Translations under genes and position numbers: made by a program
Assembly: GCA_016200325.1 (NCBI GenBank)
Contig: JACQEZ010000005.1
Location: 62,001 to 126,000 of the forward strand
Length of the DNA: 64,000 bases
Direction: 5' to 3'
DNA from: Candidatus Manganitrophaceae bacterium
GTDB lineage: Bacteria > Nitrospirota > Nitrospiria > SBBL01 > Manganitrophaceae
In this document: positions 26,382 to 32,751 of the stretch, piece by piece
Layout of the letters: each line of letters starts with the position of its first letter
Numbering within the stretch: the stretch's first letter is position 1
Notes under the pieces: model-generated
Databases searched by the model: none
What the model was told of the DNA's origin: nothing
The model's input: only the letters and a program-made list of their open reading frames with translations

Positions 26382-28814
26382 TTATTTCATGATTCGGGGG
26401 GTCAAGAAGACGAGGAGTTCGGAGACATCCTCCCGTTTGGTCGTTGTTTTAAAGAGCCAGCCCAAGACCGGGATATCCATCAGGTAGGGAATCCCGCTGA
26501 TCGAATCCGATTTGGTGGTCTCGTAAATGCCGCCGATGACCGTCGTCTCACCATCCCGGACGAGGACGTTCGTGGTGGCTTCTTTCCTCAAAATGCTCGG
26601 ACCCGATGCGCCGGGCCGGGTCTCGGCCGGGGCATTCTTCGTCACCTTCACCTTCATGATGATCCCTCCGTCGGGAGAGATATGCGGGGTAACGAGAAGG
26701 GTCAGGTTCGCATCGACGAAGGTCGTCTGCGTTCCCTGCTGAGAGGTGGTCGCAAACGGGATCGATTCACCCTGCTCGATTTTCGCTTCCTGATTATTCA
26801 GGACGGAGACCTTCGGTGTGGAGATCACCCGGGTCAATCCTTGCGACTCGCCCGCCGAAAGACGGAGGTCGAGGTTGAAAGGGTTGTCGGTAAACCGACC
26901 GAAGGTAAATCCAAGACCGCCGAAGTTCGGAGCGGAAGGCAAATTGACCGCAAAAGAGGGGTCGGGTGTGCCGAAGACCGCATTCGGCGTTCCGCCGCCG
27001 CCGCTCAATCCGATCACATTAGGACTTCTCACATCACGCAGGGTCGCTCCCCACTGAATTCCCAAGCTTCTATTAAAGGTCGGTGCAACCTGGACGATGC
27101 GCGCCTCGATCACCACCTGAGGGGTCTCTTTATCGATCTTCTTCACCAGACGCCCGATCTCATCGATATTTTTCTCGATGTCCTTCACGATGAGGGCGTT
27201 GGTTCGATCATCGATCGTCAGATCTCCCCGGGTCGAGAGGACTTTCTTCATCGATTCCACCAGGTCTCTTGCCTTGCCGTAATTGACATAGATGATGCGC
27301 GTCTGGAGATCCTCCGCCCGGACCTTCGTCTCCTTCGCCTTGGCTTCCTCATCCTGTTGGCGGGCGATGTTCGTCAGCGTGGCGATCCGGATGATATTCC
27401 CCTCCCGAATCTGGCCCAGATTGTTCATCTTCAAAATCATATCAAGGGCCTGGTCCCAAGGAACGTTGATCAATTTCAGCGTCACCTTCCCTTTGATATC
27501 CTCTCCGAGAACGACATTTAGGTTGCTCACATCGGAAATCAGGCGAATGACATTGGCAATGTCGGCATCCTGGAAGTCGAGCGAGACCCGTCTCCCGACA
27601 TACTTGGGCGAAGTGACTGCATCTACTTTCCCCTTCTTCTCAGACTCATCGGATGATTTTCCCTGCTCTTCCGGCGCCTCGGCGCTCTCAGGGGCAGTCT
27701 CAGCTGTCTCGGCAACCGGCGGCGCCGGCACCTCGGTTTTGGGTGCTTCTTCTTTGGACGCCGGCTTGGAAGGCGCCGGAGCGGGCGTTTCCGCTTTCAG
27801 CTCCGCCTTCGATCCGGGAGAGGCCACCGGCTCGGCTTTGGCATCGGCGCTCGCCAGCGTCACCGGCGGCGGCTCCACCTTCGGGAGGGTCATCCCCGCG
27901 AGCGGCGCAGGGGAAGGAGGAGAGACGACTGCCGCTGCCACCTCGGAAGAAGGAGCGGTCTCCTGCTTCTCCTTTTTAGGCTTGGAGGAAGCCGCTTTAA
28001 TGTGAACATAGAATTGATTCCCCTCCTGGTGAAGGGTATAGATCACCGGTGCGGCAAGATCGAGGACGAGCCGGACCTTGTCGGAATGAAGCCCGATCCG
28101 GGCCTGTTTTACGATCTGATCTTTCACCGGAACCGCTTTCATCTTGGAGGCGAGCTTGACGTTGGGAAGGTCGATGACAAGCCGCTTCGGATCGAGGAGA
28201 AAAACATTGGGAGAAAGCTGTCCGTCCGAGGCGATCACGAGCTGAAGATCTTCTTTCCGATCGAACCGGATGCTTTTTACGACCTTCGCAGGCTGGAGAT
28301 TTTGCTCTTCCCGGATCGGCGCCTGGATCACCGCCTTGTTTTCTTCGGGTGTTGCATTTTCTGCAGGCTTCGCCGCGGCGGTGTCTGCCGTTTTCAGACC
28401 GGCGCGGGAAACGTCGATAATCAGATTGGTCCCTTCGGTCCGGACATTGGTTTCCGCGGAGGGGTCGACCTCGATTTCAAGACGCCCGACCTGGTTCTCC
28501 TCGCCGGCCACGGGAAGGATGGAATGGACCGGGCCTTCAGCGACCGGAATCTTCTCTTTGAATTTTCCGAGACTGACGCCGGCCAGGTCGACGATGAGGC
28601 GATTTGGATCGGTCAGATGGAAGGTGGTGTAAATCATCGCCTGTTGACCGGCCACCACCACCTCGGTTTTCTCGGCGCCGTTCACCACCCGGATATCGAC
28701 AATCTCCGTCGGAGCGGCCGATTCGGTCTTCACCTGAGAGGTCTTGGGAGAGCAAGACTGTAGGAGTATCAGCGATAAAAATAAAAAGACCCATCTATTT
28801 CTCTGCCCGATCAT
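26382..28814 (-). CDS. pilQ: Type IV pilus secretin PilQ
   Basis: Outer-membrane secretin through which the type IV pilus passes. 810 aa: lipobox Cys21 (SLILLQSC), two AMIN domains (about 40-130 and 175-265) that bind peptidoglycan, a long Pro/Ala/Glu linker (about 280-400), STN/N0 and N1 domains (DIANVIRLISDVSNLNVVLGEDIKGKVTLKL), then the secretin barrel (VIEARIVQVAPTFNRSLGIQWG ... GGIYETTKSDSISGIPYLMDIPVLGWLF). Its ATG overlaps the pilP stop by 4 nt. Confidence 0.96.
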   Translation of the reverse strand: MIGQRNRWVFLFLSLILLQSCSPKTSQVKTESAAPTEIVDIRVVNGAEKTEVVVAGQQAMIYTTFHLTDPNRLIVDLAGVSLGKFKEKIPVAEGPVHSILPVAGEENQVGRLEIEVDPSAETNVRTEGTNLIIDVSRAGLKTADTAAAKPAENATPEENKAVIQAPIREEQNLQPAKVVKSIRFDRKEDLQLVIASDGQLSPNVFLLDPKRLVIDLPNVKLASKMKAVPVKDQIVKQARIGLHSDKVRLVLDLAAPVIYTLHQEGNQFYVHIKAASSKPKKEKQETAPSSEVAAAVVSPPSPAPLAGMTLPKVEPPPVTLASADAKAEPVASPGSKAELKAETPAPAPSKPASKEEAPKTEVPAPPVAETAETAPESAEAPEEQGKSSDESEKKGKVDAVTSPKYVGRRVSLDFQDADIANVIRLISDVSNLNVVLGEDIKGKVTLKLINVPWDQALDMILKMNNLGQIREGNIIRIATLTNIARQQDEEAKAKETKVRAEDLQTRIIYVNYGKARDLVESMKKVLSTRGDLTIDDRTNALIVKDIEKNIDEIGRLVKKIDKETPQVVIEARIVQVAPTFNRSLGIQWGATLRDVRSPNVIGLSGGGGTPNAVFGTPDPSFAVNLPSAPNFGGLGFTFGRFTDNPFNLDLRLSAGESQGLTRVISTPKVSVLNNQEAKIEQGESIPFATTSQQGTQTTFVDANLTLLVTPHISPDGGIIMKVKVTKNAPAETRPGASGPSILRKEATTNVLVRDGETTVIGGIYETTKSDSISGIPYLMDIPVLGWLFKTTTKREDVSELLVFLTPRIMK

Positions 28815-29356
28815 TCTAGACCCTCCTTTTGGGGATGCAATTCCATGACGACACTTCTCACCTTGGTCTCCCCAAAAATATCCTGAAATTTTTCCTCGAC
28901 CACCATCTCTTTATTCGTAATCTGGCTGACGAGACCGTTGTTGGTTCCAATCCGCGTTCCTTTTCGAACCGGGTAGCCTTTTCCGTCCGGCGTCTGAACG
29001 ATCGCGCCGTGCCCGAAATTTCCCCAAACGATGCCGATTAACCTCATCTCGGAGAGCTCCTTTCTCTGTAAAGGAGGAAGACTCTCGGAGATCGTCCGCT
29101 TCCCAGAGGCGACAATAATCGACTTGAATGGATCTCTTCTCCCCTCCGGATTATATTGGAAGAGGGCGGCCGGATCCTCTTTCTTAACCAATCCCGTCGA
29201 GGGAGCAGCCTCTTCGATCTTCGGCTTCGGCACCACCGCCGAGATGGGAGACGGGGTTGCCTTCGGCACCGCCGGCGGAGCGGCTTCTCCGCACCCGAAG
29301 GAGAGAAGCCCCAGGGAAAGTAGGGCGCCGTTTAGAAAAATGCGTCCGTTTCTCAT
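28811..29356 (-). CDS. pilP: Type IV pilus assembly lipoprotein PilP
   Basis: Inner-membrane lipoprotein that links the PilMNO platform to PilQ. 181 aa with signal and lipobox (ALLSLGLLSFGC), a Pro-rich linker and the beta-domain PilP core (MRLIGIVWGNFGHGAIVQTPDGKGYPVRKGTRIGTNNGLVSQI). Start overlaps the pilO stop by 4 nt. Confidence 0.95.
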   Translation of the reverse strand: MRNGRIFLNGALLSLGLLSFGCGEAAPPAVPKATPSPISAVVPKPKIEEAAPSTGLVKKEDPAALFQYNPEGRRDPFKSIIVASGKRTISESLPPLQRKELSEMRLIGIVWGNFGHGAIVQTPDGKGYPVRKGTRIGTNNGLVSQITNKEMVVEEKFQDIFGETKVRSVVMELHPQKEGLE

Positions 29357-29976
29357 GGCGTTTTTCCTTTTTCTGAAACCGGAGGCGGCGGCGCGGCGGC
29401 CCCTCCCTCCACCACGGCAAAGGCCGTTGCGCTGAAGCTGGTTTGGATCGAGACCCGATGCTGATCCGGTTTTGAACTTCCCATCCGAATATTCGAAACA
29501 TTCACAATCCGGGGAAGCTTGCTGATTTTATCAAAGAAAACCCCCAGCGCATGGTATCCCCCCGCCACCTCGACATCGACCGGAATCTCGACATAAAGTC
29601 CGGAGGCGTTCGGCTTCCGTTGCGCCGGTCTCCAGAGCTTAAAATCGAGACCGGTTCTCGCTCCCAACTCGGAGACCTGCTTTAAGAGAATCTCCACCTC
29701 CGCTTCCGGGGGGAGCTGCTCCTTTAATTGGGTCAATTGGTGTTTCAGCTCCCGATTCTCGCTGACCAGCTCATCCAACCGTTTCACTTTGGTTCGATGA
29801 ACATTGATCTCATTGTTCAATTCCGCGATGTCTGAATTAAATGCCGCAATCTCCGCGCTCTTCGGAATGAAGACAAACCAGACAAACGCGCCGGAGGCGA
29901 TCACGATAATCAGAACCAGCGAAACAAACTTCTGGGTGTTCGTTAAATTCTTTAATCGTTCCAGATTTAATGCCAT
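29353..29976 (-). CDS. pilO: Type IV pilus alignment protein PilO
   Basis: Bitopic inner-membrane protein that pairs with PilN. 207 aa: one N-terminal transmembrane helix (FVSLVLIIVIASGAFVWFVFIP), a coiled coil (residues about 45-95) and a ferredoxin-like end (VEIPVDVEVAGGYHALGVFFDKISKLPRIVNVSNIRM). Confidence 0.93.
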   Translation of the reverse strand: MALNLERLKNLTNTQKFVSLVLIIVIASGAFVWFVFIPKSAEIAAFNSDIAELNNEINVHRTKVKRLDELVSENRELKHQLTQLKEQLPPEAEVEILLKQVSELGARTGLDFKLWRPAQRKPNASGLYVEIPVDVEVAGGYHALGVFFDKISKLPRIVNVSNIRMGSSKPDQHRVSIQTSFSATAFAVVEGGAAAPPPPVSEKGKTP

Positions 29977-30000: not shown

Positions 30001-30546
30001 CTAAACCAAAGACCATTTCAATTTAAATGTATAAACGGAGATGGTCCCCTCCAAATTCTGTCTTGACTCCAAGATCTGGATGTCTTTAAAGAGAGGAGAT
30101 TTCTTGAGACTGTTGATGAAGTCGACGATCTCGCCGTTCGTTGTCGCCTTTCCTTCCAGGTCGACCGTTCCATTCTGCTGGTTGATGTTCACCAGCCAAA
30201 CTTTGTCGGGAAGGCTTTTGCTGATCTGATCGAGGAGAAAGACCGGAACCGATTGATTCTTCCGGAGCTGCTCGATGATATTAATCTTCTCTTCGACCGC
30301 CTTTTTATCCTTCTCGTAATTCTCGACCTCTTTGACCTTCCCCTTGAGGACGCCGAGTTCCGAGGTCAATTTTGTTTTCTCGGCCGCCAAACCGTCCACC
30401 TTTTCATTAAGAACGATTCCGATATAACCTAAAACCAAGAGGAGCATCGACAGAACCACCGACGCGATGATGATCTGCGATTGGAACTCGACCTTCTTCT
30501 TGGTCTTCTTTGTCTTTTGCGTTGAGAGCAGATTGATCTTGATCAT
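30001..30546 (-). CDS. pilN: Type IV pilus assembly protein PilN
   Basis: Fimbrial-assembly family membrane protein. 181 aa: short cytoplasmic N-terminus with the PilM-binding INLL motif (MIKINLLST), one transmembrane helix (IIIASVVLSMLLLVLGYIGI), a coiled coil and a ferredoxin-like domain. Ends 25 nt before pilO and starts 3 nt after pilM. Confidence 0.94.
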   Translation of the reverse strand: MIKINLLSTQKTKKTKKKVEFQSQIIIASVVLSMLLLVLGYIGIVLNEKVDGLAAEKTKLTSELGVLKGKVKEVENYEKDKKAVEEKINIIEQLRKNQSVPVFLLDQISKSLPDKVWLVNINQQNGTVDLEGKATTNGEIVDFINSLKKSPLFKDIQILESRQNLEGTISVYTFKLKWSLV

Positions 30547-30549
30547 GAA

Positions 30550-31626
30550 TCAACGATCTCCCACTTTTCGAATCGCCAAACCCATCCCGACCGCGGCCAA
30601 AGGGGCGACTTCCTGGATGTAATCCAGATCGAATAGCTTCTTTGGAATATCAACCTTATGGAACGGATTCGTCATTTCAACCGGAATCCCCGACTTCTCC
30701 GCAAGCTGTGAAAGAAAATCGGGAAGCTTCGATGCGCCGCCGCTGAGAAGGATGCGATCGATATTTTCATTCGTCGAGGTCGTCTTAAAATAATCGAAGG
30801 AGCGGATCACCTCCGAGGCAATTTCGGCATTGAGGTTTGTGATGATCGTGGAAAGGGCCTGGGGATCGACCCCTTCTACCGCCTCGCCCCGCTTTGCCTT
30901 TTCAGCCTGTTCGTAGCTGAGGTTAAACTCTCTCTGAATGGTCTCGTTATAGCGGTTGCCGCCGATCGAAATGTCGCGCGTAAAGGCGAAGGTGCCTCCC
31001 TTCAGGACATTGATATTCATCACGCTCGCACCGATGTTCACCAGGGCGACCACCTCCCCTTCCCGCAGGTCATAATTGACGCCATACATATTCTCCAGGG
31101 TAAATGCATCGACGTCGACGATCACCGGATTGAGGCCGGCCTCCGTCACCAGGGTCGTATATTCGGTCAGCTTGTCTTTCTTCACCGCCACCAGGAGAAC
31201 CGCCATCTGCTCCTTCGACTCCTGCGGGTCGGCCGTTCCCAAGATATGAAAGTCGATGTTGACGTCGTTAATATCGAACGGGATGTACTGCTCCGCTTCC
31301 CATTTGATCGACTCTTCCAGCTCTTCTTCCGTCATCGCGGGAAGACTGATCTTCTTTACGATCACCGAGTGACCCGACACCGAAACAGCCACGTCCTTGG
31401 TTTTAACCGCCTGCTCTTCCAACAACTCTTTGATCGCCGACACCACCCGGCCCGCGTCCATGATGGTTCCATCGACGATCAACTCGGAGTCGAGCGGCTT
31501 GACGCCGAACTTCTGTAATTGATAGCCTTTTGCGGTTTCTTTCAATTGAACCAGTTTGATTGCACCGGAGCCGATATCGAGTCCGATTAAATCCCTTTTT
31601 TTGGAGAAGGAAAGCGAAAGTCCCAT
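30550..31626 (-). CDS. pilM: Type IV pilus inner-membrane platform ATPase PilM
   Basis: Actin-like (FtsA-fold) cytoplasmic protein that binds the PilN tail. 358 aa from the ATG at 31626: phosphate-1 motif LIGLDIGSGAIKLVQLK, mid-domain KWEAEQYIPFDINDV and late NIGASVMNINV, LLSGGASKLPDF. An in-frame start 60 codons further upstream would overlap the regulator gene. First gene of pilM-N-O-P-Q; neither pilA nor the motor genes are nearby. Confidence 0.95.
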   Translation of the reverse strand: MGLSLSFSKKRDLIGLDIGSGAIKLVQLKETAKGYQLQKFGVKPLDSELIVDGTIMDAGRVVSAIKELLEEQAVKTKDVAVSVSGHSVIVKKISLPAMTEEELEESIKWEAEQYIPFDINDVNIDFHILGTADPQESKEQMAVLLVAVKKDKLTEYTTLVTEAGLNPVIVDVDAFTLENMYGVNYDLREGEVVALVNIGASVMNINVLKGGTFAFTRDISIGGNRYNETIQREFNLSYEQAEKAKRGEAVEGVDPQALSTIITNLNAEIASEVIRSFDYFKTTSTNENIDRILLSGGASKLPDFLSQLAEKSGIPVEMTNPFHKVDIPKKLFDLDYIQEVAPLAAVGMGLAIRKVGDR

Positions 31627-31639
31627 CAGATTAAACACC

Positions 31640-31858
31640 TCAACTCTTCTTAAAAGATCCCTGACTCGGCAAACGGCGGGAGATAATCCTTTTGATCTCC
31701 TTAATATTCTGCTCGGAGTAGATCCGCCAGTTTCTCCAGTCCCGCCCGACATTGGATATCCGCCCCTCGCTCTCCCAACGGAACAAGGTCGCCTTGGAAA
31801 TATCAAAAAGGCTGCAGATATCTTTTGTTTTATATTTTTCGTTTTTTCTTTGAGCCAT
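31640..31858 (-). CDS. Small MerR-like helix-turn-helix regulator
   Basis: A 72-aa protein (MAQRKNEKYKTKDICSLFDISKATLFRWESEGRISNVGRDWRNWRIYSEQNIKEIKRII): a winged helix-turn-helix of MerR type without effector domain, like excisionase- or BldC-type proteins. It ends 14 nt before pilM, so it is likely to regulate itself and the pil operon. Upstream are a strong sigma-70 promoter, a palindrome on the -10 and a tandem repeat in the leader. A GAGG lies about 10 nt before the start. Confidence 0.82.
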   Translation of the reverse strand: MAQRKNEKYKTKDICSLFDISKATLFRWESEGRISNVGRDWRNWRIYSEQNIKEIKRIISRRLPSQGSFKKS

Positions 31859-31872
31859 TCGCTGTGGTCCTC

Positions 31873-31892
31873 GAATATCCCGGAATATCCCG
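31873..31892. promoter_or_regulatory. Tandem 10-bp direct repeat in the leader
   Basis: Two exact copies of GAATATCCCG on the plus strand, end to end, between the predicted transcription start and the regulator's start codon. Exact 10-bp phasing places them on the same face of the helix, as in operators bound by small MerR/BldC-like proteins. Confidence 0.55.
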
Positions 31893-31909
31893 CTGTGCAA
31901 TTTGACGAT

Positions 31910-31941
31910 AGTAAGTATACTTACTATTTGTTGTTTGTCAA
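31910..31941 (-). promoter_or_regulatory. Sigma-70 promoter with palindromic -10 region
   Basis: Minus strand: TTGACA (31936-31941), 16-bp spacer, TATACT (31914-31919). The -10 lies inside a perfect 16-bp palindrome AGTAAGTATACTTACT (31910-31925). Likely drives the small regulator and pilM-N-O-P-Q, with repression by a dimer on the palindrome. Confidence 0.8.
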
Positions 31942-32049: not shown

Positions 32050-32751
32050 TTATTGTCCCGCCCGCTTCGCCTGCAGCATCCTCGCTGCCGTACCGCGAAT
32101 GACTTCCGGAATTCCTTTGTTTTTTGAGAGGCCGGCGAGTTCCTTCACTTTTATTAATTTAATGAAATTGAGAGAAATACCGACGGGTGTTTTGGGGTTG
32201 TTGACCAGACCGACGATCACCGCATAATTCTTGGTCCAGTTCCGATTGTTGGCGACCACCCGTAAAATTTCATCCGAGACACTTTTCGATTGGGCGATCG
32301 TCACGATTTCTTGTTCCGTGATTCTGGGGCTGTTCAACACGGCGAGCACCACCTGTTTATTCGTATCCTTTAAGAGAAGGGCCCTTGCCTCTTTATTTCC
32401 CTTCAGAGCGAGATGAATTTTTTCGGACGCGCCCATTTTTTGGACCTGCCGAAAAAGGCTTAGCTTTTGGATCTCCTCTTCTGGGACCGTCTCGGAAGAC
32501 GCCTGTCTCCCCGCCATCCATTGGCGATCGGAATAATCTCCGAACACCCGAATGTACTGGAGCGTCGTCTCCCAAGTCCGAGGATGACGGAAGAGCTTTT
32601 CGATCAGCGATTCCGTCGTCAAAAAGTATTTTGCAATCAGATCGAGGAGCGCCGCCTCGGTGGCGGAGTCTTCCACGAGAAAGAGAAGTGTTTCCGACTG
32701 AAGAAGCTCTACTTGAAGGTGGGGTAAAAAGAGACGCGACTGAGAAACCAC
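32050..32751 (-). CDS. Conserved hypothetical helical-repeat protein
   Basis: A 233-aa, largely alpha-helical protein with HEAT-like spacing (IHLALKGNKEARALLLKDTNKQVVLAVLNSPRITEQEIVTIAQSKSVSDEILRVVANNRNW). The 'L..NP/SP..E.E...A' pattern resembles leucine-rich-variant or DUF2336-type proteins, but I cannot assign a family. GTG start at 32751, 14 nt after a lipoprotein gene stop. It may be a scaffold linked to polar or pilus functions, given the neighbours; that is only context. Confidence 0.7.
   Translation of the reverse strand: MVSQSRLFLPHLQVELLQSETLLFLVEDSATEAALLDLIAKYFLTTESLIEKLFRHPRTWETTLQYIRVFGDYSDRQWMAGRQASSETVPEEEIQKLSLFRQVQKMGASEKIHLALKGNKEARALLLKDTNKQVVLAVLNSPRITEQEIVTIAQSKSVSDEILRVVANNRNWTKNYAVIVGLVNNPKTPVGISLNFIKLIKVKELAGLSKNKGIPEVIRGTAARMLQAKRAGQ

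Follow-up and report, generated by a model that had tools for sequence, protein, structure and literature searches.

The pil operon of Nitrospirota is preceded by a conserved and apparently undescribed pair of a putative autoregulator and its operator, in which a gene for a small MerR-like protein lies directly ahead of pilM and a repeated, palindromic site covers the -10 element of the promoter. Relatives across the phylum have this protein and this site in the same arrangement. Judging from sequence comparison, this protein of 72 amino acids (aa) very probably recognises and binds a short repeated sequence in its own promoter, and we consider it probable that it is dedicated to the control of its own operon, regulator-pilM-N-O-P-Q, most likely as an autorepressor that acts via the operator at positions 31908-31927 of the window, i.e. 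of the whole stretch of 64,000 nucleotides (nt) that was analysed. The components are ordinary and the pair is well suited to testing: for Nitrospirota type IV pili, it provides a single conserved regulator and a single operator, and with them a testable prediction. Nitrospirota include nitrite, ammonia and manganese oxidisers living in biofilms; to our knowledge, type IV pilus control in this phylum has not been described, and a search of the literature for a MerR-type pilM regulator or for type IV pilus control in Nitrospirota found none.

Table 1 Features of the regulator-pilM locus (positions in the window)
Feature	Position	Strand	Basis
-35 hexamer TTGACA	31936..31941	-	sequence; kept throughout Nitrospiria
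Operator, 20-bp perfect palindrome and 9-bp direct repeat (ATAGTAAGT, ATACTTACT, AT in succession)	31908..31927	-	conserved motif
-10 hexamer TATACT, within operator, 16 bp from -35	31914..31919	-	sequence
10-bp tandem duplication, CGGGATATTC twice, leader	31873..31892	-	not conserved; likely without function
Shine-Dalgarno-like GAGGA, 9 nt before ATG	31868..31872	-	sequence; GAGGA in congeners too
Gene for 72-aa single-domain MerR-like winged-HTH regulator	31640..31858	-	Pfam MerR_1, orthologues, predicted structure
pilM	30550..31626	-	TIGR01175 6.5e-79
pilN-like ORF	30001..30546	-	ORF and gene order only
pilO-like ORF	29353..29976	-	ORF and gene order only
pilP-like ORF	28811..29356	-	ORF and gene order only
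pilQ-like secretin ORF	26382..28814	-	ORF and gene order only

A single-domain MerR-like protein encoded next to pilM

The coupling of a 72-aa MerR-like gene to pilMNOPQ, as originally predicted, is real: the protein matches Pfam MerR_1 above the cut-off (26.4 bits vs. 21.6), and 13 nt separate its stop codon from the pilM start at 31626. An alternative TTG start would yield a protein of 86 aa, but both the GAGGA and a comparison with aligned relatives favour the ATG. A 233-aa gene (window 32050-32751, minus strand) that lies upstream of the pil operon shows a sub-threshold match to DUF4274 only.

All 56 of the 56 orthologues tested match MerR_1 at E ≤ 0.01, and the AlphaFold2 model built from their alignment (mean pLDDT 77; 84-87 over residues 11-60) consists of a MerR-type winged helix-turn-helix (wHTH) and little besides, with the wHTH domains of HiNmlR, CadR, GlnR, RacA and others as the closest structural matches (Z 8-10); BldC is among the Foldseek matches. 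The MerR_1 score, the orthologue matches and the top structural matches together place the protein in the MerR superfamily. The C-terminal coiled-coil dimerisation helix and the effector domain that mark a classical MerR activator are both absent from it, the chain ending about 10 residues past the last wHTH helix (49-62). Orthologues are 64-76 aa long, which corresponds to the single wHTH of about 70 aa characteristic of the BldC family; the curated model of that family (NCBIfam NF033787) gives 15.6 bits vs. a cut-off of 77. Residues 1-8, where an extra N-terminal helix of the GlnR/TnrA type was looked for, are non-helical in the monomer model, at low confidence.

Average per-column identity in the 56-sequence alignment is 56%, and C15, T24, L25, W28, E29, R39, D40, W41, R42, W44, R45 and I55 are invariant. 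On a fair alignment the mean pairwise identities of the regulator (0.59) and of PilM (0.56) are similar, and the notion of a far higher conservation of the regulator was dropped.

Distribution and linkage to pilM

Orthologues of the regulator were identified in 40 of the 58 near relatives. In a phylum sample of 296 Nitrospirota genomes, 103 matched at E ≤ 1e-5, among which 95 were strong (>97 bits) and the remainder weak or fragmentary; genomes with the gene almost always have a single copy. It is followed directly by pilM at 101 of 103 strong loci, a count in which some genomes figure twice, at a distance of -23 (overlap) to +64 nt. A scan of contigs recovered the regulator from Nitrospirota and, as the sole exception, from a contig with the label Bacteroidetes (L080), where no pilM adjoins it; pilM is likewise not the next gene for the copies on L094 and L202 (G030), the G030 copy being a second one. 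The original prediction had named absence of the gene from relatives with the same pil cluster as evidence against it; most such relatives carry the gene, and several lineages have lost it.

In some relatives, a divergent second pilM locus (L051:1169-1462; also L045, L050 and L052) begins with a different MerR-type gene of ~97 aa that overlaps pilM, so that the pairing of MerR-type genes with pilM may have arisen more than once.

Promoter and leader

On the minus strand of this genome, which belongs to the genus of Candidatus Manganitrophus, the hexamers TTGACA and TATACT match 11 of 12 consensus positions with a 16-bp spacer, and the -10 hexamer lies within a perfect palindrome; the original prediction of such a promoter was correct in both respects. 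The palindrome, originally given as 16 bp, extends over 20 bp (ATAGTAAGTATACTTACTAT, 31908-31927). Promoter-like sites occur twice in the window (1.3 expected), and a 20-bp perfect palindrome also appeared in 2 of 20 simulated windows. Because the promoter and the palindrome are weak by sequence alone, the case rests on comparison across genomes, and both become significant through conservation. The TTGACA-N16-TATACT-type spacing of 16 bp is kept exactly at 48 of 69 non-redundant loci.

The two exact 10-bp tandem repeats that had been proposed as a further element of this control region are present at 31873-31892, where the window has its single exact tandem of period 10, and were ruled out as a binding site: leaders of all congeners have a single copy of the unit (GCGGGATA...), so the duplication is private to this genome. 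The leader tandem is probably not a functional element; from the sequence, the functional repeat is likely the 9-bp direct repeat inside the palindrome.

The operator motif and its conservation

Upstream regions of relatives carry TTGACA...ATAcTAAGTATACTTACTAT. De novo motif search in 69 non-redundant upstream regions yielded a 24-bp motif of 24.8 bits, with a log-likelihood of 859 compared to 79-88 in shuffled sets. At 67 of the 69 loci the motif precedes the regulator with a score of at least 14 bits; of the two exceptions, L019 is near a contig end, and in L084 the start was misplaced in the extraction and the site is recognisable. The promoter spacer is neither read nor needed by sigma-70 RNA polymerase; the half of the operator that lies in the spacer holds about 1.0-1.6 bits in most columns. 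In Nitrospiria the operator overlaps the -10 element of the TTGACA-N16-TATACT promoter, and in the lineages L078-L089 and L143-L158, where the -35 element is mostly unrecognisable, the operator is still present.

Among 247 genomes of the class, the strict promoter-plus-operator pattern was found in 13, once per genome, and 12 of these 13 sites are at the pil locus. Most matches of the AGTATACT type in other genera are no commoner than those of a reversed-pattern control; three close congeners have one identical site (L231), uninformative given their shared descent, and a match in G238 (L067, L201), located near an unrelated HTH_3 gene, was rejected. In family f11, the palindrome TGACTATACTAAATATAGTCA (L211, L239, L241), which from inspection by eye seems to lie ahead of an acyl-CoA-synthetase-like gene, is probably the site of another regulator.

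Fate of the operator after loss of the regulator

Eighteen relatives that lacked the regulator in the first search retain pilM-family genes. In 12 regulator-less pilM promoters, the -35 and -10 elements are kept and the spacer half of the operator has decayed, with a median score of 0.5 bits (n = 12) compared to 11.3 bits in the presence of the regulator (Mann-Whitney p = 9 × 10−7, with a matrix derived from the loci that have the regulator and statistics that ignore phylogeny); the right flank of the operator shows the same trend (1.9 vs. 5.2 bits). In G054 the regulator gene is broken and the operator intact, which fits a recent loss of the regulator, as expected.

Proposed autorepression and alternative interpretations

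Under autorepression, the 72-aa protein would bind 31908-31927, a stretch that takes in the downstream half of the spacer along with the -10 hexamer, and would thus compete with RNA polymerase for a sigma-70 promoter that is strong in itself. The pilus alignment complex would then be made at a fixed level, or not at all until some signal releases the protein. Blocking of the polymerase is the simplest reading because the operator covers the -10 element and the spacer, at 16 bp, is normal to short, a geometry that fits steric repression; as the regulator is the first gene of the operon that it would control, repression would amount to negative autoregulation. The presumed sign of the effect is repressive, and an activator role is conceivable. 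Comparative evidence strongly supports the originally proposed one-domain autoregulated pil switch, the details of the 16-bp palindrome and the tandem repeats having been wrong.

Activation of the classical MerR type, in which an over-long promoter spacer is untwisted, would be in keeping with a wHTH of the MerR family and with an operator located partly between -35 and -10. This mechanism requires a spacer of 19-20 bp, however, and here the spacer is a constant 16 bp, the centre of the operator falls on the -10 element and the protein has neither a coiled coil nor a sensor domain; spacing and domain content rule out the classical distortion, and a classical activator is accordingly quite unlikely. 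Alternatively, the operator could be the site of a different conserved transcription factor, with the small HTH gene merely linked to it, a view for which certain lineages speak. In the five species of genus g7 (L032, L033, L035, L040, L041), the operator core, CTAAGTATACTTAG or CTCAGTATACTTAG, is kept before pilM without the regulator, and one species of family f2 likewise retains the core without the gene; no unlinked regulator was found in the g7 genomes down to weak scores, and another protein could use the site there. Nevertheless, most lineages without the regulator show decay of the spacer half, more than 90 genomes from several classes have the gene ahead of pilM, and the operator lies before the gene at nearly all of the non-redundant loci, which makes ownership by another factor unlikely. 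A strong promoter that is palindromic by accident and free of regulation would be compatible with the occurrence of such palindromes in simulated windows, but hardly with the conservation of the half-site in the spacer, the persistence of the operator where the -35 element is missing and the single site per genome; we regard this explanation as highly improbable.

Palindrome or direct repeat

Within the autorepressor model, the mode of binding can be refined; what follows is not a full alternative to that model. The protein would bind cooperatively, and its target would probably be 9-bp direct repeats of the kind that BldC, the most thoroughly studied MerR-like regulator with a single domain, binds head to tail (PMC5859096). 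Whether a head-to-tail oligomer of this BldC-like type takes the place of a symmetric dimer here, the perfect palindrome of this genome being partly incidental, seems to us evenly balanced. The conserved core also reads as ATANTAAST followed by ATACTTACT, and in the 20-bp core of 67 loci the self-identity at lag 9 is 0.65 compared to a null of 0.31 (sd 0.015), all other lags from 3 to 14 giving 0.08-0.44. With C for G at motif position 12 (32 of the 67 loci), the dyad is weakened to 0.60, the repeat being unharmed at 0.63. In addition, a 9-bp unit trained on pil sites finds consecutive units 9 bp apart before wza in congeners, so that 9-bp direct repeats of the kind that BldC recognises, with a putative binder, are seen at both pil and wza sites (lag-9 peak); and the protein resembles BldC in having neither dimerisation helix nor effector domain. 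Against this mode, the dyad symmetry is 0.69 compared to a null of 0.33, and perfect in the window, and BldC is matched no better, in structure or in sequence, than HiNmlR, GlnR or RacA.

BldC of Streptomyces is, like the Nitrospirota protein, a winged HTH of ~70 aa without a dimerisation or effector domain (PMC5859096), it has 9-bp direct repeats in its site and, as may be the case here, acts on several promoters. Unlike BldC, which controls developmental genes, the Nitrospirota regulator is tied to pilM, shows no clear sequence membership in the family and has a site that is also strongly palindromic. GlnR/TnrA and HiNmlR share with it the lack of a sensor domain and, as proposed here, a wHTH on palindromic promoter DNA, and are among the closest matches of the predicted structure. 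HiNmlR dimerises through a C-terminal helix, and its targets and sites are different. GlnR/TnrA dimerise via an extra N-terminal helix (PMC9938897) and also differ in targets and sites. CvkR (at tnsB), HnoC and McdR are MerR-type repressors with a palindromic site that covers the -10 element or the start site (PMC9938897), which is the arrangement proposed here; their target genes are unrelated, and CvkR, in contrast to the Nitrospirota protein, has a dimerisation domain. As the putative site of one small wHTH protein is both a palindrome and a 9-bp direct repeat, MerR-like binding modes become directly comparable on it.

A possible wider regulon

Elsewhere in the same genome, the same 12-bp core occurs in sites that precede an export gene resembling wza (C11:501334) and a gene for a sugar transferase (C11:539946, a site also found in G004), and a related site is located close to a PEP-CTERM gene (C20:275626). 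In all 6 congeners, the wza promoter has the form TTGACA-N16-TATACT with a conserved stretch, TGGGCTATACT, and in 6 of 6 genomes of the Manganitrophus genus AGTATA-type 9-bp repeats lie at a fixed distance of ~50 nt upstream of it. The unit trained exclusively on pil sites detects consecutive units exactly 9 bp apart there, with a lag-9 identity of 0.49 compared to 0.29 expected (0 of 2000 shuffles, a significance that is overstated because the sequences are related). The wza site of the genome studied here is the weakest of these as a direct repeat (5/9) and the best as a dyad (8/10).

These similarities are suggestive of a small regulon of pilus and polysaccharide genes. The broader proposition, that phylum-specific single-domain BldC-like regulators control the pil operon together with capsule or exopolysaccharide export through arrays of 9-bp repeats, and repress at pil, is tentative and on present evidence rather doubtful; if true, it would describe a minimal surface-lifestyle regulon. 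The effect at wza could be activation, given that the site is upstream of the promoter.

The repeats ahead of the wza promoters, which belong to polysaccharide export operons of the wza/wzc type, are those at L197:4337, L198:4766 and L203-L208. In two congeners (L195:3949, L196:4364), the same palindromic core occurs before homologous sugar-transferase genes, just downstream of a conserved promoter-like sequence; the G000 copy of the sugar-transferase gene combines Bac_transf with Polysacc_synt_2.
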